Of a DNA stretch of 64,000 bases, positions 19,698-62,524 are shown piece by piece. This stretch comes from Spirirestis rafaelensis WJT71-NPBG6. GTDB lineage: Bacteria; Cyanobacteriota; Cyanobacteriia; Cyanobacteriales; Nostocaceae. The notes below the pieces were generated by a model, which ran no database searches, was not told the origin of the DNA, and was given only the letters and a program-made list of their open reading frames with translations. Position 1 is the first letter of the stretch; each line of letters begins with the position of its first letter. The stretch lies in NCBI GenBank assembly GCA_019359015.1, contig JAHHID010000036.1, positions 1-64,000 of the forward strand. The letters are read 5' to 3'. A program made the translations under genes and the position numbers.

Positions 19698-22600
19698 AGT
19701 GAAATTTCAACTCCGGGGTTACTTTTATCCTTAAAGTGCTTGTCTCTGTTTCAATCCCTAATAGGGAGTAACTGAAATTTCAACTCCGGGGATAAAGTTA
19801 CCGAATGTGCTTCGCTCCCCGTTTCAATCCCTAATAGGGAGTAACTGAAATTTCAACATCCAGTCGTATTAGCCGCATTAGCCCTTTGCTCGTTTCAATC
19901 CCTAATAGGGAGTAACTGAAATTTCAACACCACCGCCAGTTGCCCCCGTCGCCCCCGGTACGCCCTGCGTTTCAATCCCTAATAGGGAGTAACTGAAATT
20001 TCAACGTGTTTGAATTCATGTACACCTTTTCAAATTACGGTTTCAATCCCTAATAGGGAGTAACTGAAATTTCAACTTCGCAAGCGAATTGCTTGGAATT
20101 CTAATAAAGCGGTTTCAATCCCTAATAGGGAGTAAGTGAAATTTCAACCTGAAGAATTACGTCTGTTATTTACTGATGGATTGTTTCAATCCCTAATAGG
20201 GAGTAAGTGAAATTTCAACTCTGGAGGGTGTCGGTAGAGCCTGCCGAGAGCGTAGTTTCAATCCCTAATAGGGAGTAAGTGAAATTTCAACTTAGACGGC
20301 AATACCTTGTGCGCCGACTGTGCCCGTTTCAATCCCTAATAGGGAGTAAGTGAAATTTCAACAAGCAATGCTATCGCATAGGCGTGCGCGACATAAAAGG
20401 GAGTCAGTTTCAATCCCTAATAGGGAGTAAGTGAAATTTCAACGCCCCCACTCCAACGAGTACGCCGCCCCAGTCAATTGTTTCAATCCCTAATAGGGAG
20501 TAAGTGAAATTTCAACCATCTATATGCGTGGCGCAGAGGCAGTATCAAAGTTTCAATCCCTAATAGGGAGTAAGTGAAATTTCAACGCTAGTCAATATTG
20601 ACGGTAAAGAATTTGAAATAGATGTTTCAATCCCTAATAGGGAGTAAGTGAAATTTCAACTCGCTCCTCAGGTGTCATTTCGGCGTAAATATGCGTCCAG
20701 TTTCAATCCCTAATAGGGAGTAAGTGAAATTTCAACAATCTGTGGCTACTCATAGCTGGTCGGTTCTACTTGTTTCAATCCCTAATAGGGAGTAAGTGAA
20801 ATTTCAACTCGTGGCGAATTCGTCCGAACTTATCGTCCCGCGTGTTTCAATCCCTAATAGGGAGTAAGTGAAATTTCAACTTCTGAGTAGGCAAGGCTGT
20901 CGGCGTAGTCCGGCGTTTCAATCCCTAATAGGGAGTAAGTGAAATTTCAACGCCTTAACTAGGGCTTCCGTGTAGCGCCCTGTGCCGTTTCAATCCCTAA
21001 TAGGGAGTAAGTGAAATTTCAACCTTCAGTCAAAGCGTATTGAGAGGCTTCTATATTGTTTCAATCCCTAATAGGGAGTAAGTGAAATTTCAACCTTTCG
21101 CTTCGCCCTGCGGGGTCGGTTTTTCGGCGTTTCAATCCCTAATAGGGAGTAAGTGAAATTTCAACCCAATACACCTTTATTTTAAGGGTAATCCCATCAT
21201 GTTTCAATCCCTAATAGGGAGTAAGTGAAATTTCAACCTAGGTAAAATATACGGGTTCCGGGAACTCCGGTGGTTTCAATCCCTAATAGGGAGTAAGTGA
21301 AATTTCAACCACCAGTGTTTTGTACCGAGCTTACGTAGCCCGTTTCAATCCCTAATAGGGAGTAAGTGAAATTTCAACAATCAATATCTACTCACCCAAA
21401 GAAATTCAAAGTCGTTTCAATCCCTAATAGGGAGTAAGTGAAATTTCAACGGTGTGTCTTTCACTGGTTTGTTTGACTTTTTTGTTGTTTCAATCCCTAA
21501 TAGGGAGTAAGTGAAATTTCAACATAGATTACCAAATCCAGAGAATGGAAATCCCTCGGTTTCAATCCCTAATAGGGAGTAAGTGAAATTTCAACGGTAA
21601 TGGCTCAATTAGCTACAGGAGGAGGCAAGTTTCAATCCCTAATAGGGAGTAAGTGAAATTTCAACATTAATGATGCCTTTTTCCCAGTAGTGAAGAGTTC
21701 TGTTTCAATCCCTAATAGGGAGTAAGTGAAATTTCAACCTGATAAATACGCGGATAGAAAAGCCGAAATCATAAGTTTCAATCCCTAATAGGGAGTAAGT
21801 GAAATTTCAACTCTAAATTTGAGTCCTAAAACTGAAAATTTAAAAGTTTCAATCCCTAATAGGGAGTAAGTGAAATTTCAACCTTTTTTACCTCCTGATA
21901 TCTCGTAAGATCCCCTGTTTCAATCCCTAATAGGGAGTAAGTGAAATTTCAACGATTTATTCTTAGTTCCAAAAAAGAGAGAGGACTTGTTTCAATCCCT
22001 AATAGGGAGTAAGTGAAATTTCAACCTGTTGAGTTGGTACAAGGTGGGCGTAAAATTGGTTTCAATCCCTAATAGGGAGTAAGTGAAATTTCAACGATTA
22101 AAGATAATGTGTATGCACGTAAAGTACTGTTGTTTCAATCCCTAATAGGGAGTAAGTGAAATTTCAACAATGACTTGATTAGGTGTTAGAGGTTTTCTTC
22201 CTTGTTTCAATCCCTAATAGGGAGTAAGTGAAATTTCAACTTCGCTGAAGTTGGGGCTTCCAAAATCAACTACACAAGGTTTCAATCCCTAATAGGGAGT
22301 AAGTGAAATTTCAACGTCGTAGCCGCCTTAGATGCTCACCCCAATCTGAAGTTTCAATCCCTAATAGGGAGTAAGTGAAATTTCAACGAACCCAATCGCA
22401 GGCAATGCCGAGGCAATTTGCACGTTTCAATCCCTAATAGGGAGTAAGTGAAATTTCAACCCTTTTTCCCTAAACCACCCTCTACCACTGCTGTTTCAAT
22501 CCCTAATAGGGAGTAAGTGAAATTTCAACTGTAGTTGTGGCATTTACCATCTACTCTTCCTTCTGTTTCAATCCCTAATAGGGAGTAAGTGAAATTTCAA

Positions 22601-23768
22601 CTAAGTTTAATGATGTTCATTACTCAGGAGATAGAAGTTTCAATCCCTAATAGGGAGTAAGTGAAATTTCAACTAAATCGTTCCAAGGTTGATTTCCCCG
22701 AACCAGGTTTCAATCCCTAATAGGGAGTAAGTGAAATTTCAACGTCATAAACTCCCTTTGGTGTTCCATTGAAGCTACTACGCGTTTCAATCCCTAATAG
22801 GGAGTAAGTGAAATTTCAACAAACGATGGAGGCACTTTAGCTTTAGGACTGCAAGTGGTTTCAATCCCTAATAGGGAGTAAGTGAAATTTCAACGCAGCA
22901 AGGGCAATGAAATTAGGTAAATCTATAAGTTTCAATCCCTAATAGGGAGTAAGTGAAATTTCAACCTTTTTGATGCTAATAACGCAATTATCAATGCCTC
23001 TGTTTCAATCCCTAATAGGGAGTAAGTGAAATTTCAACATGTGATTATCGAAAATATCGATGAATTTACTGATGTTTCAATCCCTAATAGGGAGTAAGTG
23101 AAATTTCAACCTTTGGATTATTAGCTATATTAAAGAGGTCGGAAGCAGTTTCAATCCCTAATAGGGAGTAAGTGAAATTTCAACTCTCTTTGGGCTATCT
23201 CTCCTTTTGAAAGGAGTTGTTTCAATCCCTAATAGGGAGTAAGTGAAATTTCAACAAACATCAAGATAGTATTAACCGTATTCAATTTGTTTCAATCCCT
23301 AATAGGGAGTAAGTGAAATTTCAACCTTAGTTTTTAGTACCAAAGTTAAAGCCTCAGCTAAAGTTTCAATCCCTAATAGGGAGTAAGTGAAATTTCAACG
23401 TTTTAGTTTATGGCTCTGATTTTCCCGCTGCCAATGGTGTTTCAATCCCTAATAGGGAGTAAGTGAAATTTCAACACAACTCTTACTAGATTTATCTTTG
23501 TCTAAATAATCAGTTTCAATCCCTAATAGGGAGTAAGTGAAATTTCAACAAGCAGTATTGTGTCGTGGGGATAGAACTAAGTTCGTTTCAATCCCTAATA
23601 GGGAGTAAGTGAAATTTCAACCCTACTGGAGGATCAAGCCTCCCTAAGTTGATTAATATGTTTCAATCCCTAATAGGGAGTAAGTGAAATTTCAACTTTA
23701 CTCCAAAGTCCTTTTACCAAGCCGTTGAAAGGTTTCAATCCCTAATAGGGAGTAAGTGAAATTTCAAC
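19698..23768 (-). CRISPR. Type I-D-associated CRISPR array, 56 full repeats plus one truncated
   Basis: The 37-bp repeat reads on the plus strand from GTTTCAATCCCTAATAGGGA to a ...GAAATTTCAAC end. On the minus strand it ends in GGGATTGAAAC, so crRNAs carry the usual ATTGAAAC 5' handle and the array is transcribed leftward. I located 56 full repeats, the first at 19748-19784 and the last at 23732-23768. Spacers are 32-44 nt, mostly 34-37. A 14-bp repeat stump lies at 19698-19711, followed by one more 36-nt spacer. The first five full repeats (leader-distal) have GTAACTG where all others have GTAAGTG. The leader is on the cas2 side. Confidence 0.97.
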
Positions 23769-25987: not shown

Positions 25988-26809
25988 CTAATTTCTAACT
26001 CTTCTAACCATACCCATACCCATTGTGCTTTTTCGCCCTACGCCTGCATATATTGCAAAATCAGCTAAGGCATTTATTTTTTTGATTGATATTGGTTCCA
26101 TTTCACCAAAAATACGATAGCTAATTTCGCCAACACAGCCAATAAATTTGCTATCGTAGTTGCTTAGAATTTGGGTATTGATGTTAAAAAAACTGGGATA
26201 AATAGATTCGACGGGGATATTATCAAATTCAATCCCACTGTATTTATTCCAGCGACTGAGAAGACTGTTAAAGACACATTCTCGAATTGGTAGTACGGTA
26301 TCGTATCCTCCTTGACGAAATGCTGTAGGGGTGGCAAAGGTGAAGTTAATAGTGCGATCGCTTTCTGATGCTTGTTCATATAATTGTGCGTAGGTGCAAG
26401 CATTTGCCCAAGGTTGGGTAGATTGGGGTGTCCCTTGAATGCTGGTAATAAATAAATCAGCAGAACCCAAATGCCAAGGTTGGTTGGGGTTAAGGTTTAG
26501 CCATAGCGGAGTCAGCTTGCTAAATAGAGTGTCGTCTAATAGAGAGATGCGCCACCAACAGCAAGTACCTGGGGCAATAGGTTTTTGATGACATAATTGC
26601 AAGGTGTGATAATTTTTGTGGCTTGGTTGTATTTGTAAGGGAGAAAGAGTAAAAGGCTTGTCTGCGTTGGATGAATGCAGATAGTCTCCTAATGTTTTAT
26701 CTACCGAACTAACAAGCGTTAAAAATAGGGCGTGGAGATGTCTGCCGGTGAGGAAATCAGGGTAGATGGAGGATTTTGGTGTGAGGTTGAGAACGAGGCT
26801 ATGGGGCAT
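25988..26809 (-). CDS. cas6: crRNA-processing endoribonuclease Cas6
   Basis: 273 aa. It begins 'MPHSLVLNLTPKSSIYPDFLTGRHLHALFLTL', the usual Cas6 opening with a candidate His near residue 24 or 27. It ends with the glycine-rich loop 'YAGVGRKSTMGMGMVRRV', the C-terminal signature of the family. It should cut the repeat 8 nt from its 3' end below the TCCCT/AGGGA hairpin, leaving ATTGAAAC tags. It sits between csc1 and cas4. A dispersed palindrome (26830-26856) lies just upstream of its start. Confidence 0.93.
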   Translation of the reverse strand: MPHSLVLNLTPKSSIYPDFLTGRHLHALFLTLVSSVDKTLGDYLHSSNADKPFTLSPLQIQPSHKNYHTLQLCHQKPIAPGTCCWWRISLLDDTLFSKLTPLWLNLNPNQPWHLGSADLFITSIQGTPQSTQPWANACTYAQLYEQASESDRTINFTFATPTAFRQGGYDTVLPIRECVFNSLLSRWNKYSGIEFDNIPVESIYPSFFNINTQILSNYDSKFIGCVGEISYRIFGEMEPISIKKINALADFAIYAGVGRKSTMGMGMVRRVRN

Positions 26810-26882: not shown

Positions 26883-27590
26883 TCAATTATTAAAACAATA
26901 TTCCATCCGAGCCGGAATTTTTACTTCTTGGATTTTATCAAATTGGTAGTATTGCCCTCGCATTTGCACATTTTTAATTAAGCTTACTGGAGGCATATTT
27001 ACCACGTCATAGCTAATCACTTGATTAGTGAACATCACATCTAGGGGATTTAAAGGGTAGGTACAAGTAAATATACCTTCAACAATTTTATGTTTTGGTA
27101 ATTCTTCAACAATTACCTCAGCCTTACTCATCCATTTACCTAAGCGAATCCATTTTGATAATCTGAGTTTATTGCCAGAAATAACAAAAAACTCAAATTT
27201 ACTTTCTGGCGCAATTTCTTTTGCTCTACCAAAACTAGGGATATTTTTCTGAGTTTTTTGCATCTCAACATGATAATTGTTATTAGCATACTTCCAGGTG
27301 TTGAGGATAGAAGAATGATTGAGCGATCGCGCTGGAGTTACGTAAATTTTCTGTTGATTGAGTGGCGTTAAATGCTCCTCATATTTTGGCACTTGTTCGG
27401 GGCAAAAGTATCGATAGGAATGTTCTTCAGCAACGGTAGTAGAGTAGATTTTGCTATCAACTAAACCCAATGCATAACAAAGAGCGTAATTGTGGATTAT
27501 TGGCTCTGTTTCATACAATCGCCCGATTTCACGAGTTGCGAAATAAAGGCTGTCGTGCAACTCTAATTGACAACGGTAAATAAACACCAT
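26883..27590 (-). CDS. csc1: Type I-D Cascade subunit Csc1 (Cas5d)
   Basis: 235 aa. The start 'MVFIYRCQLELHDSLYFATREIGRLYETEPIIHNYALCYALGLV' is diagnostic of Csc1, the Cas5-type subunit of I-D Cascade that caps the 5' end of the crRNA. The start codon overlaps the csc2 stop by one base (TAATG), so the two are translationally coupled. Normal length. Together with Csc2 and Cas10d it defines the I-D subtype. Confidence 0.94.
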   Translation of the reverse strand: MVFIYRCQLELHDSLYFATREIGRLYETEPIIHNYALCYALGLVDSKIYSTTVAEEHSYRYFCPEQVPKYEEHLTPLNQQKIYVTPARSLNHSSILNTWKYANNNYHVEMQKTQKNIPSFGRAKEIAPESKFEFFVISGNKLRLSKWIRLGKWMSKAEVIVEELPKHKIVEGIFTCTYPLNPLDVMFTNQVISYDVVNMPPVSLIKNVQMRGQYYQFDKIQEVKIPARMEYCFNN

Positions 27591-28624
27591 TACTCTTTCC
27601 CCGCTTTAGCAGCAGTTTTCTTCTTGCTGATATGCTTCTTGGCATAATCTTTAGCTTCTGCATCAGCTTTTTGCAAAATTGCCTGAATTCCTTTCTCACT
27701 TCCTGTTAAAGTTTTGACTTCATTAATTAAGGATACAAAAGCATCACCAATGAAATCTCTATGAACAATGAACTCATCAGCCATTAACGCCTCAATAGCA
27801 TTTTTAGCAGCAGTAATTACATCATCTTCATCTAGTGGATCGGGAGGATTTATAGTATTATTAGATTTCATTTGGTCATATATTGCCTGAGTCCAACGCA
27901 GGTTACTAGTGATTTCTCCATCCGCAAATACGACACCAATTAACTCATTTCTAACGCGACCTGTACGGGTAGTTTGCGCCCCATAGTGACGAGTTCGCAA
28001 AATGTTATTAAAAACGTAAAGGAAGCTAGCTTCAGTGGGGTCTTTCAAGGTGACAATACTAGGGAAGAAAACTTGCGGTCTAATATGGTCTTGTTGGTTA
28101 ATTCTGGCTGTTACTGTACCTATTTCACCATCTACTTTACCATCTGATTTCTTTTCTCCTTTTGCAGCCATTGTGCCATTTTCATAGGGAGCATTGAGGG
28201 TAAAACTTTCGTGTGATTCATCAAAAGATGTAATTGAAAATGCTGTATCTACGACAACTTTGGATTTTTCAGAGCCAGAATCACCAATAGCAAACCCGTA
28301 AATAATGCAATCAGGATTATCCATTGCAAAAGCTACGTTATATTCACATTCTTCAGCAGTCATTAAACCATAGTTCCGTAGCAATTCTCGGCCTACTAAA
28401 CGTTCTGGCGTTGATTGCTTACGTTTGAACATCGACAAACGGCTAATTGTAGTTTTATCTTTGACTCCGGCTCTTACCCGTGCTTTATTAAGTTCTGAAT
28501 CTGTCTGAAATAAAGGATAAGACTCGGTAATACGAATAGTCAAAAAATGGACATATTTACCCATTGGCTTGTATGGAATTTCAGATTGAAAAAACTTCGC
28601 TTCAACAGTCTTCAATAATGACAT
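27590..28624 (-). CDS. csc2: Type I-D Cascade backbone subunit Csc2 (Cas7d)
   Basis: 344 aa from the ATG at 28624, which has GGAG 9 nt before it; an ATG at 28639 overlaps that site. The sequence 'MSLLKTVEAKFFQSEIPYKPMGKYVHFLTIRITESYPLFQTD', 'GRELLRNYGLMTAEECEYNVAFAMDNPDCIIYGFAIGDSG' and 'ILRTRHYGAQTTRTGRVRNELIGVVFADGEI' identifies Csc2. This is the Cas7-type protein that polymerises along the crRNA. A lysine-rich tail ends the protein. It is between cas10d (80 nt upstream) and csc1. Confidence 0.95.
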   Translation of the reverse strand: MSLLKTVEAKFFQSEIPYKPMGKYVHFLTIRITESYPLFQTDSELNKARVRAGVKDKTTISRLSMFKRKQSTPERLVGRELLRNYGLMTAEECEYNVAFAMDNPDCIIYGFAIGDSGSEKSKVVVDTAFSITSFDESHESFTLNAPYENGTMAAKGEKKSDGKVDGEIGTVTARINQQDHIRPQVFFPSIVTLKDPTEASFLYVFNNILRTRHYGAQTTRTGRVRNELIGVVFADGEITSNLRWTQAIYDQMKSNNTINPPDPLDEDDVITAAKNAIEALMADEFIVHRDFIGDAFVSLINEVKTLTGSEKGIQAILQKADAEAKDYAKKHISKKKTAAKAGKE

Positions 28625-28704
28625 ATTTTTTGTCTCCAAATTAAATGAAATAATCGCTTGATAGTTTTGTACGCAGAATCGTTATTTCTATAGGCTAAAA
28701 TAGC

Positions 28705-31700
28705 CTACAAAGCTTCATCTTCATTTTCTTCTTGTATATCATTATCAGGTTTATTACCTTTATCATGGCGTTCTTTATCATTTTCTAGACGATATAAAAA
28801 CTCGCAAGTATCTTTGATTAGATTGAGTTGACGGCCAGCTAAACGAGCGCGATCGCCTGCAAATGATTTTTCAAAAACTTCTACTACAAAGTGTTGTGCA
28901 AAATTTAAAATTGCCTCTCTTTCTTCATCACGATGAACGATAACCCAACGTCCCTCTGCTGTTGAGTTACGCACTCGCTCCATCAATTTAAAAATTTTTG
29001 CAGCTACCGCATCAACTAATACTTCACCTTGAAAGAAGTTTTTGTCGGCTTTGATAATAGTCTCAGCAGCCTCATCAATTGGTTTCAAGATAGCATTAGA
29101 CTTGATTGGTTTTCCTTTACTAGATTTTGCTCGGTAAAATTTGCGGTAAAGTTCAGTTAATTTTTTGGGATGATGCAAGTGTGATTCTTCTGCCATAGTC
29201 CATTTCTCCAGGTGAAAATCATATTTAACATAAGGGTCAAAACAAGGGTAAAAGTGGTTAGCATAAAGCTTAATTTTACTCAAGCTTGCAGCATCAACTT
29301 TTTGGTTACGCACCCACCGATTGAGATAAGAAAAGACGTACAGTGGACTGGTTTCAAAATCTTTAGCCAGTTCCGTAAATCTCCCCCAGTTGGCATCGTA
29401 ACCAGACTTCCCCTGTCGCGCATTCACATCTAAATGAATGGCATAAGCGGCGGTAAGCACATTTAAAGGTGCTGGATATTGGATGCCGTTTTCGTTCCAG
29501 CCTTCGAGGATGTAGTCAAGACGGAAGCGATCGCGCCTTACTAAAGCACGAAAAGCATGAGGCGCACTATCAAGGAAAACGCTTTCCTCAAATTCAGCCC
29601 CATCATTAAAAGGTGGAATTGGTGACTCTGAAATCACAGTTTTAACATCTAAAATCATTGGGAAAGCAAACGCTAACCAAGTTGGCATTACCCAAGATTC
29701 TGTATCGGTGCTGTCTCTTCCTGGCGGGAGCGCCATGAAGTAAAATGTTAAAGGCTGGTCTTCAGGATAGGAAAGCTTAAAGGTGCGATCCTTGTCACGC
29801 TGGAGGTTTTCATCGATTAAGAAACTATCTACACTTTGGTAGCGATCGCGCCCCAAGTCCGCCTGTAAATCCTTACTGATAAAATGATTCCGAACGCCCG
29901 TATCAAAGCGAGTTTGAGCAATACCATTGTATGCTTTCTGCAAAAACTTATTAGTCTCTGGAGTAAAGTAATAAGTAGGATAAAAGTAGAGATAGCGATA
30001 TTTACCATCTTCAAATCGCTTACCTACAGCTTGAGTTTGATTCATCAAGATTTGCCTCAGCATCATCTCCATACCTGCAATACTGGAGATATTGCGTTTA
30101 GCGTTGGAACCTCCTAACATCTGCTTATTTGTATAAACTTGTGGCGTAAATAAAACTGCTGATTCCATTTGCTCAGTAACCGTGTAAGCAGAATGAGAAA
30201 TTGAGCAGATTAATTGTTTCCCTCGCCCTGCTTTTTTCGCAGCATTGTAATTATCTAACTCATTTAGAAATGTTTCAACTTGAGTTTTAACAGATGGCTC
30301 TTGATTAGTGCCTGGTAACATGACAACTCGTTTTACCCAAAGCCTTAAATCATCCCAACCATCAGGTAATTCATACTGAGAAATTATCGGAAAAATTAAG
30401 GTTGTCAAATAGTCAATGACTTGCTGACAAGCTTCGCGGACATCTTCAATACCTGGATGATGTTCTAAATATTTAGCCGCCAGATAGTACCATTCATAAG
30501 GTACTCCTCCAGTATTTCCCTTTAACTTGTTTTCTTTGAGACTTTCATTAATGCGTTGAATTTCTCTAATTTGGGGTAAACATTCTGCTATATTCCAAAA
30601 TTCTGCAACTTTGTGAGTTAAATCAAAATCGGGAACTGCTGGCAGCTTTTTATCTTTCTTACGAGCAGAATCAACGCGATTAACTGTTTCTTCCCAAATC
30701 TTCCGGCTAACTAAATCCCCAAATTCTGCTATTTGGTCAATGCGGATATCATCTTCAAATTTGAAGTCATAATCAGCAGATAAAACATTTTGTTGCTGAA
30801 ACTTATTCAGATTTTCGCTGCGACTTTTAGCAACAGAGCCTTTATTAGGGTTTAAGATGCGTAATGTTGCATCTAAGGCTACTTTCATCAAGCCTATATC
30901 ATCAAAAAATAAGTTGTAATATTCGGCATATTTCATGCCTTTGCCATCTCTACCAAATCCTGTTTGTCTCAGGCGTAATTGACCTGAACAAAGCGATTTA
31001 ATACTATTAACTACACGATCTGGTAAATCTTCCGGCGAGATAGCTGGAGCATTGCGCGAAGCCAAGTAAATTACGCCTGTTGGCAGATATAACAAAGGTT
31101 CATAGTAGGTCTGCTCATCAGTATTGAGTCTAGTATGAGCCTGGATTAAAGCATTATTTACCACATTAGTTAAAACACCACGATTCTCAGCAATGCTGTG
31201 ATAGGTAAATTTTAATTGCCCATCACTGAGGCTGTGGAGAATTCCATTTAATGTTTGGTGTTCTGCATCTTGAGGATGCTTAATAACTGAGGAAACTAAA
31301 TCAGCTAAATAAGTTAAATCAGCAAGACATATCAGGATATAATCATCAATTATTGGCTGTAAACCATACTCAGAAACATTGAGATTTGTATCATTTCGAC
31401 GCTGGGCATTGTAGGCAATAAATAACAAATCATCTCGATATTCTTGCCATGCTGTTGGTTCATCAGGACTAACAAATTTATCAAGACCTAATTCACAGAC
31501 TATAACATCTATAATTTCGCGGTGGGCATCTACAGATAACTTGCGAATGTCTTGTTCTTTATCTTGGCTAATTGTTTTATAATTATCTGGCATTTTAGGA
31601 AATAGCCGATAATCAAACTTTTCAAAATCATGTAAAATAAACCCAGCAATTAATAACCGTCTTTCTTGTTCTTGAATTACCCTTTTTGCAGTGGTATCAA

Positions 31701-32193
31701 GTTTATTTAGACAACGCTCTATTAAATTAGCTGGTAGTAAACCATTGAGTAAATGAGTATTTAAAGATTGATCACCTGCATTTCTTCGATCAAGTTTTTT
31801 CGGCTCTTTTATTTTGTGGCTTTTACCTAAATTATTTTTGTGGAAATTCTCTATCTCCTTTTCTCTCTTTTTATCGAAATAATCAAAAAATTTACCACCT
31901 TTGGCTGTGACTCCAACTGCTACCCGTAAAAGATTGGGTAAAACGTAATCACTAAATTCCTGCATAATTAAATCATCGTCATTTTCTGATTTAATTGCAT
32001 CTTGCAGTAACTTGAGGGTTAAGAGTTCTGCTGATTGTGTTTCGACTTTTAGATTAGATGTTTCTTGAAAGTCAGAATCATCTCCAGACATCCAATCATC
32101 ATCTGATAGTTCGGAAGTTGAATCATTTTCTATTTCTGCTTTTAAGAGTGATAGTTGTTGATATTCATCTGATTTCTTAGTTTTTTTAGCCAT
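28705..32193 (-). CDS. cas10d: Type I-D large subunit Cas10d (Csc3) with HD nuclease
   Basis: 1162 aa. After an acidic, probably disordered N-terminus (1-60), an HD-type nuclease domain follows. It includes 'LNTHLLNGLLP' (about 145) and 'LIAGFILHDFEKFDYRL' (about 181-197), the HD pair being at 188-189. The central and C-terminal parts are typical of Csc3, e.g. 'RQTGFGRDGKGMKYAEYYNLFFDDIGLM' and 'AYAIHLDVNARQGKSGYDANWGRF'. In I-D the HD nuclease sits on Cas10d rather than Cas3, and Cas10d also reads the PAM. It ends acidic (NDIQEENEDEAL). It follows the YhcG-type nuclease gene by 59 nt. Confidence 0.95.
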   Translation of the reverse strand: MAKKTKKSDEYQQLSLLKAEIENDSTSELSDDDWMSGDDSDFQETSNLKVETQSAELLTLKLLQDAIKSENDDDLIMQEFSDYVLPNLLRVAVGVTAKGGKFFDYFDKKREKEIENFHKNNLGKSHKIKEPKKLDRRNAGDQSLNTHLLNGLLPANLIERCLNKLDTTAKRVIQEQERRLLIAGFILHDFEKFDYRLFPKMPDNYKTISQDKEQDIRKLSVDAHREIIDVIVCELGLDKFVSPDEPTAWQEYRDDLLFIAYNAQRRNDTNLNVSEYGLQPIIDDYILICLADLTYLADLVSSVIKHPQDAEHQTLNGILHSLSDGQLKFTYHSIAENRGVLTNVVNNALIQAHTRLNTDEQTYYEPLLYLPTGVIYLASRNAPAISPEDLPDRVVNSIKSLCSGQLRLRQTGFGRDGKGMKYAEYYNLFFDDIGLMKVALDATLRILNPNKGSVAKSRSENLNKFQQQNVLSADYDFKFEDDIRIDQIAEFGDLVSRKIWEETVNRVDSARKKDKKLPAVPDFDLTHKVAEFWNIAECLPQIREIQRINESLKENKLKGNTGGVPYEWYYLAAKYLEHHPGIEDVREACQQVIDYLTTLIFPIISQYELPDGWDDLRLWVKRVVMLPGTNQEPSVKTQVETFLNELDNYNAAKKAGRGKQLICSISHSAYTVTEQMESAVLFTPQVYTNKQMLGGSNAKRNISSIAGMEMMLRQILMNQTQAVGKRFEDGKYRYLYFYPTYYFTPETNKFLQKAYNGIAQTRFDTGVRNHFISKDLQADLGRDRYQSVDSFLIDENLQRDKDRTFKLSYPEDQPLTFYFMALPPGRDSTDTESWVMPTWLAFAFPMILDVKTVISESPIPPFNDGAEFEESVFLDSAPHAFRALVRRDRFRLDYILEGWNENGIQYPAPLNVLTAAYAIHLDVNARQGKSGYDANWGRFTELAKDFETSPLYVFSYLNRWVRNQKVDAASLSKIKLYANHFYPCFDPYVKYDFHLEKWTMAEESHLHHPKKLTELYRKFYRAKSSKGKPIKSNAILKPIDEAAETIIKADKNFFQGEVLVDAVAAKIFKLMERVRNSTAEGRWVIVHRDEEREAILNFAQHFVVEVFEKSFAGDRARLAGRQLNLIKDTCEFLYRLENDKERHDKGNKPDNDIQEENEDEAL

Positions 32194-32252: not shown

Positions 32253-33272
32253 TCATTCAAATCCTTCTAGCAATTTAGCAACTTGTTCTGGATCTGGAAG
32301 TTGATTTTTTAATTCTTGTGGTACTTTAGAAACTATTTGGTAAGTTGCAACACCAATTGGTTTATTAGATTCCTTTAGTGCATATTCCACAATAGTTCTC
32401 TGTTTGGATTTACAAAGAATAATGCCAATAGAAGGATTTTCTTCTGGTAGCTTTACCGTGTTATCTAAAACAGCTAAATAAAACTGCATTTTGCCAACAT
32501 ATTCAGGTAAAAACTTACCAATTTTTAATTCTATTGCCACCAAACACTTCAAACGGCGATGATATAATAGGATATCTATAAAATATTCCTCATCATCAAC
32601 TTCTAAACGATATTGGCTACCAATAAAAGCAAATATTCCACCCATTTCTTGTAAGAAAGGTTGAACTTTTGCTAAAATTGACTCTTCTAGCTGTCGTTCG
32701 CTGTGTTCATCTGCTAATTCTAAAAAATCAAAAGTATATTCATCTTTAACTGCTAGCTTTAATTGGTTACGTATCTCTGCTGAAATACTTTGATCAAAAT
32801 TAGTTTGATTAAGCAGAGTTTTTTCATAAGTTTGATTTTCAATTTGGTGAATTAATACGTTTTTTGTCCAGCCAAACTTCCGAGTCATTCTAATGTAAAA
32901 CTCTCGTTCTAAGTCATCTTTGCATTTTTCTAAAATGACCAAATTGTGAGTCCATCCAATTTCTGCAACCATTGGTTGCAGTTTTTGATTTTGGCTATAT
33001 GTGACGTAAAAATTCCGCATATTCCAGATATTTCTAGCAGAAAAACCACTAATACCAGGAAACTCTGCTTGTAAGTCTTTTGCTAGCTGTTCTACTACTG
33101 ATTTACCCCAACTAGCATCCTGTTGTTTGATAACAATCATCTGCCCAATATCCCAATACAGGTTAATCATTTCCCGATTAACTGCCTTTAATGCTTCGTA
33201 CTGGGCTGAACGAATCCGTTGTTGTACTTCCATAAGTAGATGTCTGTAATCGTCAGAAATGAAATTACTCAT
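32253..33272 (-). CDS. YhcG/DUF1016-family PD-(D/E)XK nuclease
   Basis: 339 aa. The N-terminal DUF1016 helical region begins 'FISDDYRHLLMEVQQRIRSAQYEALKAVNREMINLYWDIGQMI' and contains 'GFSARNIWNMRNFYVTY'. The C-terminal nuclease domain has 'VDDEEYFIDILLYHRRLKCLVAIELKIGKFLPEYVGKMQFYLAVLD'. The Asp and E-x-K catalytic set is intact. The family is widespread near restriction-modification and other defence genes; its activity is poorly known. Here it is inside the cas operon, in the same orientation, 59 nt ahead of cas10d. Its presence there is not part of the standard I-D gene set. Family call is strong; a role in CRISPR immunity is inference. Confidence 0.9.
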   Translation of the reverse strand: MSNFISDDYRHLLMEVQQRIRSAQYEALKAVNREMINLYWDIGQMIVIKQQDASWGKSVVEQLAKDLQAEFPGISGFSARNIWNMRNFYVTYSQNQKLQPMVAEIGWTHNLVILEKCKDDLEREFYIRMTRKFGWTKNVLIHQIENQTYEKTLLNQTNFDQSISAEIRNQLKLAVKDEYTFDFLELADEHSERQLEESILAKVQPFLQEMGGIFAFIGSQYRLEVDDEEYFIDILLYHRRLKCLVAIELKIGKFLPEYVGKMQFYLAVLDNTVKLPEENPSIGIILCKSKQRTIVEYALKESNKPIGVATYQIVSKVPQELKNQLPDPEQVAKLLEGFE

Positions 33273-33437: not shown

Positions 33438-33470
33438 GGGGGCTTTTAAAATGATTTATTTTAAGCCCCC
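33438..33470. terminator. Strong hairpin, GGGGGCTT / AAGCCCCC
   Basis: GGGGGCTTTTAAAAT (33438-33452) pairs with ATTTTAAGCCCCC (33458-33470) with a small bulge. T-rich sequence follows on the plus strand and A/T-rich sequence on both sides. It lies immediately after the stop of the 63-aa ORF on the minus strand. It therefore probably ends that transcript and separates it from the nuclease-cas10d genes. Confidence 0.7.
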
Positions 33471-33478
33471 TTTAAATT

Positions 33479-33670
33479 TTAAGCAGCCAATTTCATCAAC
33501 TTCATAGGTATTAAGCAAGTTGGCTCTGGAAATAAATCGAGTTCGAGTTGTTCGTACTCGATGGGTTGCGGAACTTCCTCGAACTGCTTTTCTTCACCAT
33601 CATTAGCAGTAAAATGCTTAGATGTGTAAAGACGTAGGTCGAAGAGTTCCAACTGCTTATAAAAATCCAT
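33479..33670 (-). CDS. Small acidic hypothetical protein inside the cas locus
   Basis: 63 aa, beginning 'MDFYKQLELFDLRLYTSK' with a similar 'EYEQLELDLFPEP' near residue 39 and ending 'MKLMKLAA'. GGAG lies 10 nt before the ATG and the strong hairpin terminator begins right after the stop, so this looks like a genuine short gene. No family recognised. It lies between cas3d and the YhcG nuclease gene, downstream of a highly structured leader and of a site matched by the mini-CRISPR spacer. It is a candidate product (toxin or other) of a CRISPR-controlled unit, but that is speculation. Confidence 0.6.
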   Translation of the reverse strand: MDFYKQLELFDLRLYTSKHFTANDGEEKQFEEVPQPIEYEQLELDLFPEPTCLIPMKLMKLAA

Positions 33671-33890
33671 GCAGTTGAAGCTCCATTTACTTTTTGTGCA
33701 TGGTGGCTCTTGTCATCAAAAAGGCGTGATAGCGTCGGCAGCGTGTTAGCATTTGTGGCAACGCTCATGCGGCTGAGGTAAGAAATTATCAATACCGCAG
33801 CCGTAAGAGCGTCGTCTATGCTCAAACATCGGTGACAACGAGTTTCCGTCTCTGAACTTGAAGGCTGACACCACCGCCTAAATAATAACA
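33671..33890 (-). ncRNA. Candidate structured leader or small RNA upstream of the 63-aa ORF
   Basis: Leftward, this stretch contains a long hairpin. Arms 33793-33812 and 33761-33780 pair at 17 of 20 positions across a 12-nt loop. A weak promoter (-10 TATTTA at 33884-33879, -35-like CTGAAC at 33906-33901) could start it near 33872. Within it a 27-codon ORF (33829-33746) reads MFEHRRRSYGCGIDNFLPQP...CHKC, with a cysteine-rich end and an AGA-CGA-CGC arginine run. Whether RNA or peptide matters cannot be told from sequence. Confidence 0.4.
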
Positions 33891-33898
33891 CATCGTAT

Positions 33899-33917
33899 AA
33901 GTTCAGCATAGGAAGAC
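33899..33917 (-). promoter_or_regulatory. Site matched by the mini-CRISPR spacer, with GTC PAM
   Basis: The minus strand reads GTC then TTCCTATGCTGAACTT. The sequence after the solitary repeat at 34001-34020 starts TTCCGATGCTGAACTT: 15 of 16 match. GTC fits the GTH-type PAM reported for type I-D. The site covers the -35-like part of the putative leftward promoter. The match is seen directly; its function is inferred. Confidence 0.55.
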
Positions 33918-33920
33918 CAC

Positions 33921-33948
33921 TTGTAAATTTAGACTAAATAGTTATAAA
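33921..33948 (+). promoter_or_regulatory. Putative promoter of the mini-CRISPR
   Basis: TTGTAA (33921-33926), 16 bp, TATAAA (33943-33948): a good vegetative sigma-factor promoter pointing right. A start near 33955 would give a leader of about 40 nt before the first solitary repeat. Nothing else on the plus strand here would need a promoter. Confidence 0.55.
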
Positions 33949-33995
33949 ATCAGGGTGGGCGAACTTTAGCACTGCTTTCAGAAATTTAGGCAGTT

Positions 33996-34128
33996 TAAAA
34001 TCCCTATCAGGGATTGAAATTTCCGATGCTGAACTTGAAGGCTTATACCTTCTCGCCCAAATTTGCAAGCCCTTACATTTATTGAATAAGGGTTTGCAAG
34101 ATTCTAAAATCCCTATCAGGGATGAAAC
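33996..34128 (+). CRISPR. Mini-CRISPR: two degenerate solitary repeats downstream of cas3d
   Basis: TCCCTATCAGGGATTGAAAT (34001-34020) and TCCCTATCAGGGATGAAAC (34110-34128), each preceded by TAAAA, match the processed end of the array repeat (TCCCTATTAGGGATTGAAAC), but on the plus strand. The hairpin arms TCCCT/AGGGA are kept and only the loop differs. The second copy lacks one T in the handle. The 84-nt interval is longer than one spacer. The second repeat ends against the cas3d stop codon, so a rightward RNA would be antisense to the cas3d 3' end. Confidence 0.7.
34062..34101. terminator. 13-bp hairpin after cas3d
   Basis: TTGCAAGCCCTTA and TAAGGGTTTGCAA pair (one G-T) across an 11-nt loop. 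It lies 30-70 nt downstream of the cas3d stop and inside the interval between the two solitary repeats. It may terminate the leftward cas3d transcript or fold within the rightward RNA. It has no long U-run. Confidence 0.5.
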
Positions 34129-34129
34129 T

Positions 34130-36337
34130 CTAAACTATCCATATCTCTTCCCCCTGGAAACGATAAGCTTGAGTATCTAGCAATAGTGCAGACTGCCCGA
34201 AAGCAATGCAGTATGGTGGTGTATTATCTAAAACACTATATTGGTCACTAATTGGGTAAATCTGAAAGTGCATTGGCAATCTTCCTTGCTGACGTACTCT
34301 CTCTAAGGGAAAAGGCAGCAGATAACTAACTAATGCCTGTTTCTTCAATTGCTTGTTAATTTCACTAATCCAATAGTTTGCAGGTTGCCAAACCTGAATA
34401 CCTAACAACACCTGCACATCCCAAGTATCAGCAAAGGGTTTCAAGTCCCCAGGATAAGTAAATTTCCAATCTAGTCTTTCTTCTCGATAGCGAAGTAATT
34501 TCATAAATCCTAAACAGTTTTTAAATCTGCCTTTGGGAATAGTTGTATCTGTGCGTTCTGCTGTCGCTTGTCGCAGTCGTTCAAATTCTGTCCCTTTTAT
34601 CGGTTCAATTTCCAAGTTGCTGAGAATTCCTGGTAAATCGTAGGTTTTGAACTTATCAGCCTCATTTTTCTCGGTAGTATCGTAAATTCCACACAGTAAA
34701 GGACTCTTACCACGAAAGCTCACAGCCTCCTCTAAAATAGGATTTCCCTTATCTGTTCCTGAAAGTTCGTGCCATTTTTCTTCCCATTCTTTGCTACGGA
34801 CAAAGGCTGCTTTAAGATTGGCTTTTCTTTTGTCAGTGCTGAAAACTATCTCACAATCTTTCTTTAGTGCTTCCTGACTACCTGCTGCATATTGCTCTTT
34901 AATATTAGGATGTCCCAACTGCCGAACCAGTCGCATAGATTGAACAACACCCCATTTAAAGTAATAGCCTGTAAAATCATTAATTTTGCGGTATTTATCC
35001 CTAATTTGATCATGAAAAAATGGACGTTCATAAACTTCGCCTGACTTCAATAGTGGTGCTTCATCCTTCTCATCTTTTTCAAAAAGCCTTTTCACCAAAA
35101 ATTCAGGGACAAGTGCATAAGCAGTAAAGTTAGTAAAATTAATCTGCTGTCCGTCACGTTCATAACCATCATGTCGTCCCAGTCTGCCTAAACGCTGGAT
35201 AAAATTACCTGCGTCTGCTGATTCAAAAAACAAGAAATTGATTTTGAAATCAACACCCACATCAATAGTGCTAGTTCCTAAAACTAAATCAGCATCTAGG
35301 GATTCTTCTTTAGTTTTTTTCCCAGATAAACCAGTATTTTCTTCAACTGTGAAATTATACGGCTGGAGAAAAGGTGTAAAAAAATCCTTTAATCGTTTCA
35401 CAGCAGCAATAGAATTAAGAATAATTGCGCCTTTGCTATCTGGATGCTTTTGTAAATGATCTAAAATCAACGCTACATTGTCTCTTAACCAAGTTTCAGA
35501 AGCCTTAGATGTAGATTCTAAACCGACAAAATGCAATGATATTTCCCCTACGACTTTTCGCCAATATTGAGTTTTTAGATGCTCAAATTCAGTAATAGTG
35601 TTAGGAAATTGATATTTATTCTCTTCAACTGGGTTAATTTCATGACAGCGAAAATCTGCTAATTTAAGCCTCTCAATTAATTGGGGATTTGGGGTAGCAG
35701 AAAGGAATAAAAACTTTTTACGCCTGTTAGTACGACGAATCAAAAGCATTGTGTTAATTACGCTGGCAATTTGTGGCGCTTTGAACACATGAAATTCATC
35801 AAAAAGAATGACATTAAAACGCTTATCTATTCTATTCCAGAGTTTATCTGGATTATCTTTATAAAGTAAATATGACCCATAATGTAGATAGTGAAAAATA
35901 TCAGGATTGGTAAGCAAAATTTCAGATTGCCCAGCGCGAGTTTCTAAAGCTACTCCTTTTTTCAAGTTTTCTTCTTCAGCATAAATTTCTAATTCTTGTC
36001 CACTTAATCTATTAACGCGCGGTTTATGTTCAGGCTGAAATTGCTCAATGTATCCTTTAATTTGTTTTTCTTGATCTCTAGCGAGTTCGTTTGTGGGATA
36101 TAGCCCTAAAACAGGAGAGTGTCTTTGCAAAATATCCAGGTATCCGGCGAGACTTTTACCATCGCCAGTCATTGCAGTGTTGAATACTACATCAATATTT
36201 GGATCGCGCAACGCTTCTAAAGTTGCGGCTTGATGCCAAGAAAGTAACCAATCTTTAGGTAATTTCACCTCGTCAGGTGTTGGGACAGTTTGGGAGTAAA
36301 CAGGCTTAAGAGTAATAATTTTGTATGCTTCGGTCAT
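34130..36337 (-). CDS. cas3: Type I-D CRISPR helicase Cas3d (Cas3')
   Basis: 735 aa superfamily-2 helicase without an HD domain, as expected for I-D. Walker A is 'TAMTGDGKSLAGYL' (GDGKS at 58-62), DExH is 'ILFDEFHVF' (about 175), motif III 'LFLSATPNP', and motif V/VI regions are 'LGTSTIDVGVDFKIN' and 'NFIQRLGRLGRHDGY'. It unwinds target DNA after Cascade binding, while Cas10d supplies the nuclease. Its start overlaps the stop of the DUF5615 toxin gene by 4 nt (ATGA). It is therefore likely translated in coupling with the toxin-antitoxin pair. Confidence 0.94.
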   Translation of the reverse strand: MTEAYKIITLKPVYSQTVPTPDEVKLPKDWLLSWHQAATLEALRDPNIDVVFNTAMTGDGKSLAGYLDILQRHSPVLGLYPTNELARDQEKQIKGYIEQFQPEHKPRVNRLSGQELEIYAEEENLKKGVALETRAGQSEILLTNPDIFHYLHYGSYLLYKDNPDKLWNRIDKRFNVILFDEFHVFKAPQIASVINTMLLIRRTNRRKKFLFLSATPNPQLIERLKLADFRCHEINPVEENKYQFPNTITEFEHLKTQYWRKVVGEISLHFVGLESTSKASETWLRDNVALILDHLQKHPDSKGAIILNSIAAVKRLKDFFTPFLQPYNFTVEENTGLSGKKTKEESLDADLVLGTSTIDVGVDFKINFLFFESADAGNFIQRLGRLGRHDGYERDGQQINFTNFTAYALVPEFLVKRLFEKDEKDEAPLLKSGEVYERPFFHDQIRDKYRKINDFTGYYFKWGVVQSMRLVRQLGHPNIKEQYAAGSQEALKKDCEIVFSTDKRKANLKAAFVRSKEWEEKWHELSGTDKGNPILEEAVSFRGKSPLLCGIYDTTEKNEADKFKTYDLPGILSNLEIEPIKGTEFERLRQATAERTDTTIPKGRFKNCLGFMKLLRYREERLDWKFTYPGDLKPFADTWDVQVLLGIQVWQPANYWISEINKQLKKQALVSYLLPFPLERVRQQGRLPMHFQIYPISDQYSVLDNTPPYCIAFGQSALLLDTQAYRFQGEEIWIV

Positions 36338-36720
36338 TTATCTTTTCTCTCCACCTCAATATCCTGATATTCTTGAATACTTCCTTGTCGAATTAGCCAT
36401 AATTTACCAGTCACATCTGCTGCTTCAAGTCCAGCAATTAAAGTTTCTGTAACTGTATGATAATCTTCAAAAGTAGGACGAGATGGTAAACGAATGACTA
36501 TAATTCCTGTATAGTGAGAACGATTATATTTAAGACGATTTCCGAATCCTCTATCTATCGTTACTAAACATCTATTCTCGCTACGACAAATATCAATTAA
36601 TTCCTCATCAGGAGTTGAAATTAAACCTTGTTCTCGGACAGTGGCAACATCATGTCCTGCAAGACGCAATAATGTAGCTACTCGCAGACTACCAAGATTT
36701 TCATCAAGTTTAATATTCAC
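36334..36720 (-). CDS. DUF5615 PIN-like toxin
   Basis: 128 aa. Begins 'MNIKLDENLGSLRVATLLRLAGHDVATVREQGL' with the conserved 'LDENL' Asp/Glu, followed by 'DEELIDICRSENRCLVTIDRGFGN' with the second acidic site. This is the DUF5615 (Mut7-C/PIN-like RNase) fold that usually partners DUF433. The GTG start overlaps the antitoxin stop (GTGA), and its stop overlaps the cas3d ATG (ATGA). The sequence is full length with no broken motif. Predicted ribonuclease toxin of a type II toxin-antitoxin pair. Confidence 0.88.
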   Translation of the reverse strand: MNIKLDENLGSLRVATLLRLAGHDVATVREQGLISTPDEELIDICRSENRCLVTIDRGFGNRLKYNRSHYTGIIVIRLPSRPTFEDYHTVTETLIAGLEAADVTGKLWLIRQGSIQEYQDIEVERKDK

Positions 36721-36977
36721 TTTTGTGATTCCTTTTGCAACCCCAAAGGAATTTCTACATAGCTATCTCTTGTCATCTCCGCAGCGTATGCAATACAGGA
36801 TAGGATATCTTCTTGTTCCAAACCGGGATATTCTTCTAAAATTGTCTCTATTTTTTCTCCACTTGCAAGAAGGTCGAGAATTAAACTAACCCATATACGA
36901 TGACCTTTAATACAAGGTTTACCGAAACAAATATTTGGATCAATGGAAATTCGAGATAGTAAATCGTTCTTAGTCAT
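36717..36977 (-). CDS. DUF433 antitoxin
   Basis: 86 aa from the ATG at 36977, chosen because GGAG lies 8 nt upstream and it matches the family start ('MTKNDLLSRISIDPNICFGKPCIKGHRIWVSLILDLLASGEKIETILEEYPGLEQEDILSCIAYA'). The frame also stays open upstream to 37112. The 'GKPCIKGHRI' and 'YPGLEQEDILSCIAYA' motifs are classic DUF433, a winged-helix antitoxin that binds its own promoter. First gene of the leftward cas transcript. It may add autoregulation to the cas promoter next to it. Confidence 0.9.
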   Translation of the reverse strand: MTKNDLLSRISIDPNICFGKPCIKGHRIWVSLILDLLASGEKIETILEEYPGLEQEDILSCIAYAAEMTRDSYVEIPLGLQKESQK

Positions 36978-37146
36978 TGAAACTTCTCCAAATTTGTCGT
37001 AATTCTTCTCAATGAATCCTCTTCTCCTAATTCTATATTTGGACTTACACTTAAATAGTGTCCGTAACTGGTTGTTAAAAACTATATTGGCACGCAAAAT
37101 AGAAGTTGACAAGAGAGTTTACGTATAAAGTACACGGACACTTTTA
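36978..37146. promoter_or_regulatory. Divergent cas/WYL control region with inverted repeat operator
   Basis: AGTGTCCGT (37057-37065) reappears inverted as ACGGACACT (37134-37142), and both arms carry matching TTAAA flanks. The left copy also forms a small palindrome, ACACT-TAAAT-AGTGT (37047-37061). The right copy abuts the WYL start codon at 37147 and overlaps its TATAAA (37124-37129). A regulator binding both sites could control both directions. TTGACA at 37106-37111 is only 12 bp from that TATAAA, so promoter boxes are uncertain. Confidence 0.6.
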
Positions 37147-38040
37147 ATGAGTCGAAAAGGTCAATCTATTACACTGTCGATATCAGAACGTGATAAAGCC
37201 GAGCTAGAAGCGATCGCTCGTGAATTCGGTATGATGTGGGGAGAAGAGCAGCCTAACATCTCTAAGTTAATTAAAGCGATCGCTCAACGTAAGTTACTCA
37301 TCGGTAACAATAACGATTGGAAAGAACCACGCATTAGAGCATTACATCGATGTATCAATGCGTTGACAGACATCGGGCAAATTGAACAAGCCCAAATCAT
37401 TGCAAACTTACTTCTCGAACGCAGCGAATTATCATTACCGTTGCGAGGCGAAATCGAACGTTTCTTAGAGAATTTGCCCCCACCTTGGCGCTTAGAAATA
37501 GACCGCTACATCTTACGCGAACAGCCCTTTCAGCTTTCCTATCAAGATGCAGCAGAGCGTGTGTTTAATTTTACCGTTCGCTATGCCAAAGTTACACCCC
37601 ACGAAAAGCGGCAATATCTTGATTGCTGGTGCGAAGAAACAGAAGGAAACTTTGATATACCAGAACTGGTTCACAACTGGAGTTTACGATTAGACCGAAT
37701 TACTGAAGCTGCTGTTATGCCAATTTCTGGTGAGTGGCGATCTAATTTGGCCCAGATAGAAGTGGAAATGCATCTATTTGCTGGTTTGGCTTTTGCCTAT
37801 CAAGCTAAACCAGAAGACAATATTAATGAGTGGCTACCAGATAAAGCGCGAGTCCGGCGAGTTGTCAGGCGAGTATCTAGTACATTTTGGTTTAGCCGCG
37901 AAGTCATGCAATATGCACCAGATTGTGTGGTTATATTACCAGAAAATGTGCGATCGCTCGTTAAAGAAAAACTTAAATCCCTTTGCCACAAATATGACTT
38001 GGAAGTTCATTGCCAAGATTTAAACTCCACTAGCAACTAA
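37147..38040 (+). CDS. WYL-domain transcriptional regulator of the cas locus
   Basis: 297 aa. The N-terminus, 'MSRKGQSITLSISERDKAELEAIAREFGMMWGEEQPNISKLIKAIAQ', looks like a ribbon-helix-helix/winged DNA-binding part. The C-terminal half contains a WYL-type ligand domain ('FQLSYQDAAERVFNFTVRYAKVTPHEKRQYLDCWCEET', then 'HLFAGLAFAYQAK'). In Synechocystis a WYL protein (sll7009) beside the type I-D locus represses it. This gene has the same position, divergent from the cas operon, so it is probably a functional counterpart. Little ribosome-site signal; perhaps leaderless. Confidence 0.88.
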   Translation: MSRKGQSITLSISERDKAELEAIAREFGMMWGEEQPNISKLIKAIAQRKLLIGNNNDWKEPRIRALHRCINALTDIGQIEQAQIIANLLLERSELSLPLRGEIERFLENLPPPWRLEIDRYILREQPFQLSYQDAAERVFNFTVRYAKVTPHEKRQYLDCWCEETEGNFDIPELVHNWSLRLDRITEAAVMPISGEWRSNLAQIEVEMHLFAGLAFAYQAKPEDNINEWLPDKARVRRVVRRVSSTFWFSREVMQYAPDCVVILPENVRSLVKEKLKSLCHKYDLEVHCQDLNSTSN

Positions 38041-61788: not shown

Positions 61789-61833
61789 AGCTGTAAATAA
61801 GCGGTTTGCCGAAATCAAAGTAGCTCACAGGAT

Positions 61834-62272: not shown

Positions 62273-62524
62273 GAGCCTCAGAAGGTCAACGATGAGCCTC
62301 AGAAGGTCAACGATGAGCATCAGAAGGTCAACGATGAGCCTCAGAAGGTCAACGATGAGCCTCAGAAGGTCAACGATGAGCCTCAGAAGGTCAACGATGA
62401 GCCTCAGAAGGTCAACGATGAGCATTAGAAGGTCAACGATGAGCATCAGAAGGTCAACATTGAGCCTCAGAAGGTCAACGATGAGCATCAGAAGGTCAAC
62501 GATGAGCATCAGAAGGTCAACTTT
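62273..62524. repeat. 12-copy minisatellite with 21-bp unit
   Basis: Twelve uninterrupted units of the pattern GAGCMTCAGAAGGTCAACGAT (M = C or A) occupy 252 bp. Because 21 is a multiple of three, several frames stay open and yield heptapeptide repeats such as EPQKVND, MSLRRST or LRLIVDL. One unit has a TAG in the EPQKVND frame. No ribosome site or flanking gene supports translation. Confidence 0.85.

Follow-up and report, generated by a model that had tools for sequence, protein, structure and literature searches.

A two-repeat mini-array downstream of cas3d as a probable CreR-like regulator of type I-D CRISPR effector genes

What is the function of two CRISPR (clustered regularly interspaced short palindromic repeats) repeats that stand apart from the main array, behind a cas3d gene and on the strand opposite to it? 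The question is raised by a stretch of 64,000 nucleotides (nt) from Spirirestis rafaelensis WJT71-NPBG6 (contig JAHHID010000036.1, positions 1 to 64,000), the whole of which is called the window here and which belongs to a genome of 7.07 Mb in 143 contigs. The minus strand of the window carries a type I-D locus in the order cas3d, a gap of 857 nt, yhcG, cas10d, csc2, csc1, cas6, cas4, cas1, cas2 and the array. In the gap between cas3d and yhcG-cas10d, and antisense to the cas genes, two repeats (R1, 33984-34020; R2, 34093-34128) enclose a single spacer (S1). With a probability of roughly 0.86, we interpret this element as a two-repeat mini-CRISPR that would make a CreR-like regulatory RNA, resembling a CRISPR RNA (crRNA), and thereby exert feedback on the type I-D effector genes.

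A preliminary description of this DNA had reported two repeat-like units of about 20 nt in the gap. Both were found where it had placed them, but they are longer than was thought: each matches the Rfam model CRISPR-DR5 (RF01318) over its full length, although below its gathering score of 40, and they are thus two whole 37-position repeats around a 72-nt spacer. CRISPR repeat families were the only families recovered in an Rfam scan of the stretch. The Cas6-type hairpin and the handle are shared with the main array repeat, as had been proposed, with 56 array copies lying within one mismatch of the 19-nt core of R1. S1 is about twice as long as a usual spacer and is predicted to form a hairpin at 34063-34099; in the predicted fold of the mini-array RNA (z-score of the whole RNA, -3.52) this strong hairpin leaves the first 16 spacer bases unpaired. 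A promoter-like sequence does point towards the repeats, but it reads TTGTAA-18-TAAAAT rather than TTGTAA-16-TATAAA, and it is weak when taken alone because the stretch contains 4 promoter-like sites as compared to 2.3 in shuffled sequences.

The start of S1 matches the minus strand at 33914-33899 (TTCCGATGCTGAACTT / TTCCTATGCTGAACTT) in 15 of 16 bases, with GTC at 33917-33915, confirming the pairing first described. The protospacer-adjacent motif (PAM) of type I-D Cascade is reported to be GTN (PMC9123187). In 2000 dinucleotide shuffles of the region upstream (700 nt), no match of this quality arose, whether or not a PAM was required, and none of 70 foreign spacers fitted the same region equally well. 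When the whole genome was searched for GTH followed by the first 16 spacer bases, with positions 6 and 12 left free, the site at 33914-33899 was the sole match with at most one mismatch; at two mismatches, the pattern recovered the spacer itself and two further sites. The match between the spacer and this site is not due to chance.

We compared the window to other type I-D loci, which are cited below by L numbers. The order set consisted of 110 of the 165 genomes of the order with a match to cas3d, plus L003, L006 and L007, giving 113 loci; L002, L004 and L005 were left out because they were judged to represent the same genomes as L009, L010 and L012, and the removal of L074, in which cas3d is at the contig end with no sequence downstream, left 112. 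A repeat was called if at least 15 of 19 core positions and at least 6 of 7 handle positions agreed, on the antisense strand and within 1.5 kb downstream of cas3d (R1 of L027 was set by hand to its second repeat). Such a repeat was identified in 82 of the 112 loci. It was found in 2 of 11 loci in which at most 350 nt separate cas3d from cas10d and in 50 of 70 in which this gap is larger, counting loci with more than 2 kb of downstream sequence. The distance from R1 to R2, which is 109 nt in the window, is mostly 69-79 nt and ranges from 58 to 109 nt in the 61 order loci with two repeats. L027 has a third repeat farther out, 204 nt past the cas3d stop, perhaps a relic of a longer array.

The preliminary description had proposed that related loci be compared for pairing between spacer and promoter, and this pairing is conserved. 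In each locus, the search covered at most 700 nt on the upstream side of the first repeat, with spacers swapped in from other loci as the control. Scored by the PAM rule (a GTH PAM and at least 11 of 15 matches over positions 1-17, omitting 6 and 12), a cognate site was present in 67 of the 82 repeat loci, as compared to 19 of 1640 swapped spacers. Since this score had been shaped on part of the order loci, all 17 positions were also tested with no PAM imposed, and at least 13 of 17 bases then matched in 63 of 82 cognate searches and in 54 of 1640 swaps. GTT or GTC precedes 52 of these 63 matches but only 2 of the 54 swap matches, against a GTH background of 4.2%. Mismatches in the 63 matches are concentrated at position 6 (38 matches) and position 12 (36), while the other positions within 1-16 have 1-14 and position 17 has 20; from position 17 onward, where the scored stretch ends, the counts climb. 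In a Cascade complex every sixth base of the guide is flipped out and left unpaired. The peaks at 6 and 12 are, at the level of these alignments, the mark of a Cascade R-loop. The 67 loci with a target carry 16 family labels by hand count and 48 distinct 17-nt spacers.

The same thresholds were applied unchanged to 38 of the 50 matching genomes of the class that lie outside the order. A repeat was found in 22 of the 38 loci, and 19 of these 22 have a cognate site, as compared to 3 of 440 swaps. In the PAM-free test, 16 of the 22 reached 13/17, with GTT or GTC preceding 13 of the 16; mismatches again peak at positions 6 and 12 (10 of 16 each), with 0-5 at the others within 1-16 and 8 at position 17. 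By hand count, 8 family labels are represented outside the order.

The sites lie 40-216 nt upstream of the first repeat. The best site of the 67 order loci lies on the strand that codes for cas10d in 47 cases and on the mini-array strand in 20. An extended -10 motif (TGnTAnnnT) is located at +22 to +31 from the start of the protospacer in 16 of the 47 cas10d-strand loci, as compared to 1.14 expected. At least two sites were found in 21 loci, either in tandem 22-32 nt apart (83 nt in L056) or on both strands, so that the promoter of the mini-array itself may also be under control. Downstream of the site, a small gene comes first; cargo resembling toxin-antitoxin genes (DUF433/DUF5615, MNT/HepT or YhcG) often follows, and then cas10d. 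In L112, cas10d lies 136 nt from the site with no other open reading frame (ORF) listed between them, and in L060 and L064 one small gene is followed by cas10d after 40 nt.

Comparison among loci thus establishes an antisense mini-array, a partial, PAM-flanked match of about 17 nt, an R-loop signature and a promoter at a preferred distance. We propose that the RNA of the mini-array would be cut by Cas6 and that Cascade loaded with the resulting guide would bind 33898-33914, where it would cover the -35 and upstream portions of the extended -10 promoter. Bound Cascade would repress the transcripts that run into the small gene, yhcG, cas10d and the remaining effector genes. As the pairing would end near position 17, the complex would be expected to block rather than to cleave. 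Low levels of Cascade, an anti-CRISPR or competing crRNAs may each relieve the repression, which would give a feedback loop.

Several observations weigh against this interpretation. By the repeat pattern, 30 of the 112 order loci and 16 of the 38 class loci have no repeat, although at least L067 and L098 among the former bear mini-arrays with another repeat. No site reached the threshold in 15 of the 82 order loci with a repeat, nor in 3 of the 22 in the class (L160, L169 and L170). To these come the 20 of 67 best sites on the mini-array strand and the 31 of 47 cas10d-strand loci that have no extended -10 motif at the set distance. Common descent links the loci, as the 48 distinct 17-nt spacers among 67 loci indicate, and the excess of mismatches at position 18 (45, with 29 and 33 at positions 19 and 20), beyond the scored stretch, is not clear. 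The guide RNA and the start site are predicted from sequence only. Between the 63-amino-acid (63-aa) ORF and yhcG there is an inverted repeat that might uncouple the small gene from cas10d, although the terminator scan did not report it. Finally, L003 and L005 (the same genome as L012) have deletions that remove the target site while one or both repeats are kept, so control is dispensable at least there; these deletions are natural loss-of-control alleles.

The two deletion loci are found among close relatives of the window. In six relatives with 86-94% identity in cas3d, inspected by eye, a mini-array with another spacer follows directly after the cas3d stop in five, while L003 has a single repeat. 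By eye, the spacers of L002, L004, L006 and L007 resemble a GTT-flanked site downstream; in the later scoring, L002 and L004 (as L009 and L010) reached 14/15 and L006 only 10, and the first repeat of L007 was missed by the pattern. Downstream of cas3d in L067 and L098, which are not among the 82, the mini-arrays have a different repeat stem (AATCCCG...CGGGACTGAAA) and a spacer of the AAATA type. The inverted repeat in the window is long and lies at about 33438-33470 (GGGGGCTTTTAAAAT...ATTTTAAGCCCCC).

The preliminary description had left two options, a CreTA-like guard or a cas-regulating mini-CRISPR. The second is strongly supported by the counts of repeats (82/112) and of cognate sites (67/82 as compared to 19/1640 swaps, and 19/22 in the class), while the guard found no support, as the promoter leads into cas10d. 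In a guard of the CreTA/CrePA type, the mini-array would silence a small gene or an RNA that is toxic, in this case the 63-aa ORF; a cell that lost Cascade would then be harmed, which would make the CRISPR system addictive. Such a role would fit the position of a small gene as the first gene after the promoter in many loci, as well as the toxin-antitoxin-like genes (DUF433 with the PIN-like DUF5615, or MNT/HepT) that often follow. The family of the small gene also tends, by eye, to track that of the spacer: an ORF of the 63-aa family (QLELFDLR...QLELDLFP) was seen in 9 of 12 loci with a TTC-type spacer and a target, the loci having been sampled by target presence; small winged-helix-like proteins accompany many AAATA/GAATA spacers, and coiled-coil-like proteins accompany ACAGA and some other spacers. 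Among close relatives, mini-array, promoter and small gene look as if swapped as one cassette. These three parts of the window are unlike those of its near relatives, amid similar cas3d (86-95%) and yhcG (95-98%) genes, and the cassette may therefore be exchanged as a unit. Homologs of the 63-aa ORF were found in 4 of 60 genomes of the family, including that of the window, and two of the others lie beside cas3d (G366, by position, and L119). Against a guard, the small first genes belong to widely different families in different lineages, and the Pfam scan gave no family and no toxin signature for the 63-aa protein and no firm match for any small first gene scanned. The loci in which cas10d follows the target directly (L112) or 40 nt past the small gene (L060 and L064) argue in the same direction, and we regard a guard as improbable. 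Nor was the leftward RNA found to be notably structured, as had been claimed (97 nt, z-score -0.32).

It is very improbable that the element is without a regulatory role, either as the decayed remnant of an ordinary array or as a phage-type RNA anti-CRISPR. Decay of an array might leave standalone repeats, and solitary repeats are reported to serve phages as RNA anti-CRISPRs (PMC10651486). Against both origins stand repeats on the same strand and in the same neighbourhood in many loci, accompanied by a PAM-flanked site with the kink signature. The loci concerned span 16 family labels within the order and 8 beyond it. We also considered a WYL-type regulator as an alternative means of control, but an upstream homolog is present in 45 of 48 held-out loci that have the repeat and in 25 of 27 that do not (70 of 75 in total), so there is no trade-off between this regulator and the mini-array.

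If the mini-array makes a guide for Cascade, as we prefer to think, that guide may have another partner in the locus. The start of the spacer recurs at 33843-33872 as a direct copy in 25 of 30 bases, termed S0, which was absent from the preliminary description. We searched for such copies by aligning each entire spacer locally to the same strand over at most 1.4 kb of upstream sequence, with unweighted positions and a threshold of 18/30. S0-like elements without a GT PAM were identified in 42 of the 82 order loci (foreign spacers, 26 of 820) and in 14 of the 22 class loci (foreign spacers, 11 of 220); by score within 520 nt, 29 of the 82 beat all 40 swaps. No such element reached the threshold where the spacer was of the ACAGA or ACTGT type. 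The three bases before S0 are A-N-T in 31 of the 42 loci. S0 and S1 differ at positions 6, 12, 18, 24 and 30 in 30, 26, 35, 31 and 37 of the 42 loci, at positions 1-3 in 21-25, at position 8 in 24 and at the rest of positions 4-29 in 0-16. Two of the 42 (L110 and L088, with a misassigned first repeat) were dropped from the counts of distinct pairs, of wobble changes and of S0 as a guide, and identical pairs were counted once in the distinct-pair, class-set and wobble counts. Over positions 4-30 of the 39 distinct pairs, the mismatch fraction is 0.76 at multiples of six and 0.03-0.28 in the other five phases. The former fraction is 0.68-0.93 in each of six spacer families, where the highest other phase is 0.39, and 14 pairs from outside the order give 0.77 as compared to 0.00-0.23.

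Because S0 and S1 diverge chiefly at multiples of six, Cascade carrying the S1 guide would fit S0 from position 4 to position 29. A DNA target at S0 is disfavoured by the lack of a PAM and by the poor seed; the RNA that is complementary to the guide there is the transcript in the cas direction. S0 would lie at the 5' end of this transcript in loci of the TTC type, given the putative start site, and it lies between the small gene and the next gene in the AAATA/GAATA-type loci looked at. At paired positions, changes of T to C and G to A outnumber the reverse by 39 to 15, as compared to 22 to 15 at kinked positions; this asymmetry, as a sign of RNA rather than DNA, is only suggestive, as it is shaped by family structure. 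In families b and c (L017, L035, L047 and others), S0 lies about 430-560 nt upstream of R1 in a noncoding stretch that is conserved over about 120 nt (GACTTAACCAGCCAT ... GGGGGTTGAGA ... AAGCTTCCCTC) and delimited by an inverted repeat. The consensus fold of 18 sequences of this stretch is weak on either strand (-2.20 and -1.39 kcal/mol).

S0 might instead be a second guide that shares the promoter target with S1 and differs from it only at the free bases. This would likewise account for the six-base period of the mismatches; in some families S0 follows a faintly handle-like stretch (GGGGGTTGAGATT), and, used as a guide, S0 has a GTH-flanked site of at least 11/15 in 11 of 40 loci. The arrangement is nevertheless unlikely. 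Of the 60 cells in which S0 and S1 differ at paired positions within 4-17, the promoter site shares the S1 base in 52 and the S0 base in 5, and the promoter target is fitted at 11/15 or better by S0 in 11 of 36 loci and by S1 in all 36, both comparisons being biased to S1 because the sites were chosen by their fit to it; moreover, seed positions 1-3 of S0 differ from those of S1 in 21-25 of the 42 loci. With S0 as a target of the S1 guide, one guide would serve two targets: Cascade would bind the DNA of the effector promoter through the PAM and about 17 nt, and the RNA of the effector transcript through positions 4-29 of S0 with no PAM. We give about even odds to such a two-level self-limiting or titration circuit, which would provide a natural role for the binding of single-stranded RNA by type I-D Cascade. 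A guide complex at S0 could block translation or halt RNA polymerase, or S0 could soak up guide complexes.

The features of the locus are listed in Table 1. Its assignment to type I-D follows from a cas3' helicase gene that is separate from cas10d, together with csc2, csc1, cas6, cas4, cas1, cas2 and an array; of these, cas3', csc2, cas6, cas1 and the array were identified directly, and cas10d, csc1, cas4 and cas2 through their position or annotated relatives. A Pfam scan of the window gave no match for either cas10d or csc1.

Table 1. Positions in the window of the mini-array, its putative targets and the surrounding type I-D genes.
Feature	Position	Strand	Basis or remark
Main CRISPR array, 37-nt repeat GTTGAAATTTCACTTACTCCCTATTAGGGATTGAAAC	19748..23768	-	
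cas6, presumed processor of the mini-array RNA	25988..26809	-	Domain match
csc1 (cas5d)	26883..27590	-	Position only
csc2 (cas7d)	27590..28639	-	Domain match
cas10d, large subunit of type I-D Cascade	28705..32193	-	Locus position, size, annotated Cas10d/Csc3 at the same place in other loci
yhcG (DUF1016_N and PDDEXK nuclease)	32253..33272	-	Domain match
63-aa ORF, first likely gene past the controlled promoter	33479..33670	-	Family linked to TTC-type spacers
S0, PAM-less second copy of the spacer	33844..33872	+	Leftward transcript complementary to the guide here
Extended -10 promoter TG-T-TATTAT towards cas10d, putative start near 33875	33882..33890	-	Sequence only
DNA target of S1, TTCCTATGCTGAACTTA, mismatches at 5 and 17	33898..33914	-	Spacer comparison
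PAM of the target, GTC	33915..33917	-	
Mini-array promoter-like TTGTAA-18-TAAAAT	33921..33950	+	Points at the repeats; weak alone
Repeat R1, Cas6-type hairpin TCCCTATCAGGGA, handle ATTGAAAT at 34013-34020	33984..34020	+	RF01318 model 1-37/37, 34.7 bits
Spacer S1, putative guide of the CreR-like RNA, matching part 34021-34036	34021..34092	+	
Repeat R2, one T lost before the handle (GGGATGAAAC)	34093..34128	+	RF01318 model 1-37/37, 35.9 bits
cas3d (Cas3' helicase)	34130..36337	-	Homologs annotated type I-D Cas3'; mini-array begins just past its stop

Directly upstream of cas3d, the window contains a gene pair encoding a PIN-like DUF5615 protein and a DUF433 protein (36334-37112), and a number of other loci also have DUF433 or MNT-like genes in the interval from the small gene to cas10d. 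The divergent gene with a WCX domain at 37147-38040 was taken as the WYL-type regulator from its place. Farther away, two near-perfect tandem arrays consist of three copies of a 147-nt unit (61816-62250) and about 12 copies of a 21-nt unit (62273-62521).

The element suggests how many cyanobacteria could hold the levels of their type I-D system in check, and dozens of natural guide-target pairs that obey one kink rule offer material on how incomplete pairing sets binding apart from cutting. The main catalogue of such mini-arrays, by Shmakov et al. in 2023, reportedly describes a spacer between two repeat-like units that partly matches the promoters of cas or cargo genes, mostly in type I systems. 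That catalogue may include type I-D loci of cyanobacteria; we know of nothing like S0 in it, and to our knowledge S0 is the part of the element that has no counterpart. It is a concrete and conserved candidate for a physiological role of type I-D single-stranded targeting. In the text available to us, a 2023 review of type I-D systems lists the physiological role of single-stranded nucleic-acid targeting as open and names protein regulators, with the terms CreTA, crRNA-like and mini absent (PMC10212523). A literature search recovered no description of such a type I-D element in the titles and abstract openings of the matches listed.

The element can be compared to three known systems. In Synechocystis PCC 6803, the plasmid pSYSA carries a system of the same subtype with a WYL-domain gene adjoining cas3, but cas10d starts 13 nt after the end of cas3, leaving no room for a mini-array. 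CreTA has two degenerate repeats and a guide, CreA, whose seed was mapped by mutation to positions 1-5 and 7-11 and pairs beside a PAM in a promoter region (PMC8501985); a repeat-flanked guide with a seed match to a promoter next to a PAM was likewise found here, whereas the controlled unit leads into cas10d, and a toxin was not identified. The closest resemblance is to CreR, a crRNA-like RNA that represses cas operons and is reported to occur widely among type I and V-A systems (PMC12737573); the sections of that review at hand name no type I-D case. Like CreR, the element has a repeat-derived guide, here from two repeats around one spacer near cas genes, with a seed match beside a valid PAM in the promoter region of effector genes, as recognized by its motifs, and would follow the same feedback logic. 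Unlike CreR, it belongs to a system with a Cas10d subunit, lies antisense downstream of cas3d, has at least two sites in 21 loci and is accompanied by the PAM-less S0.

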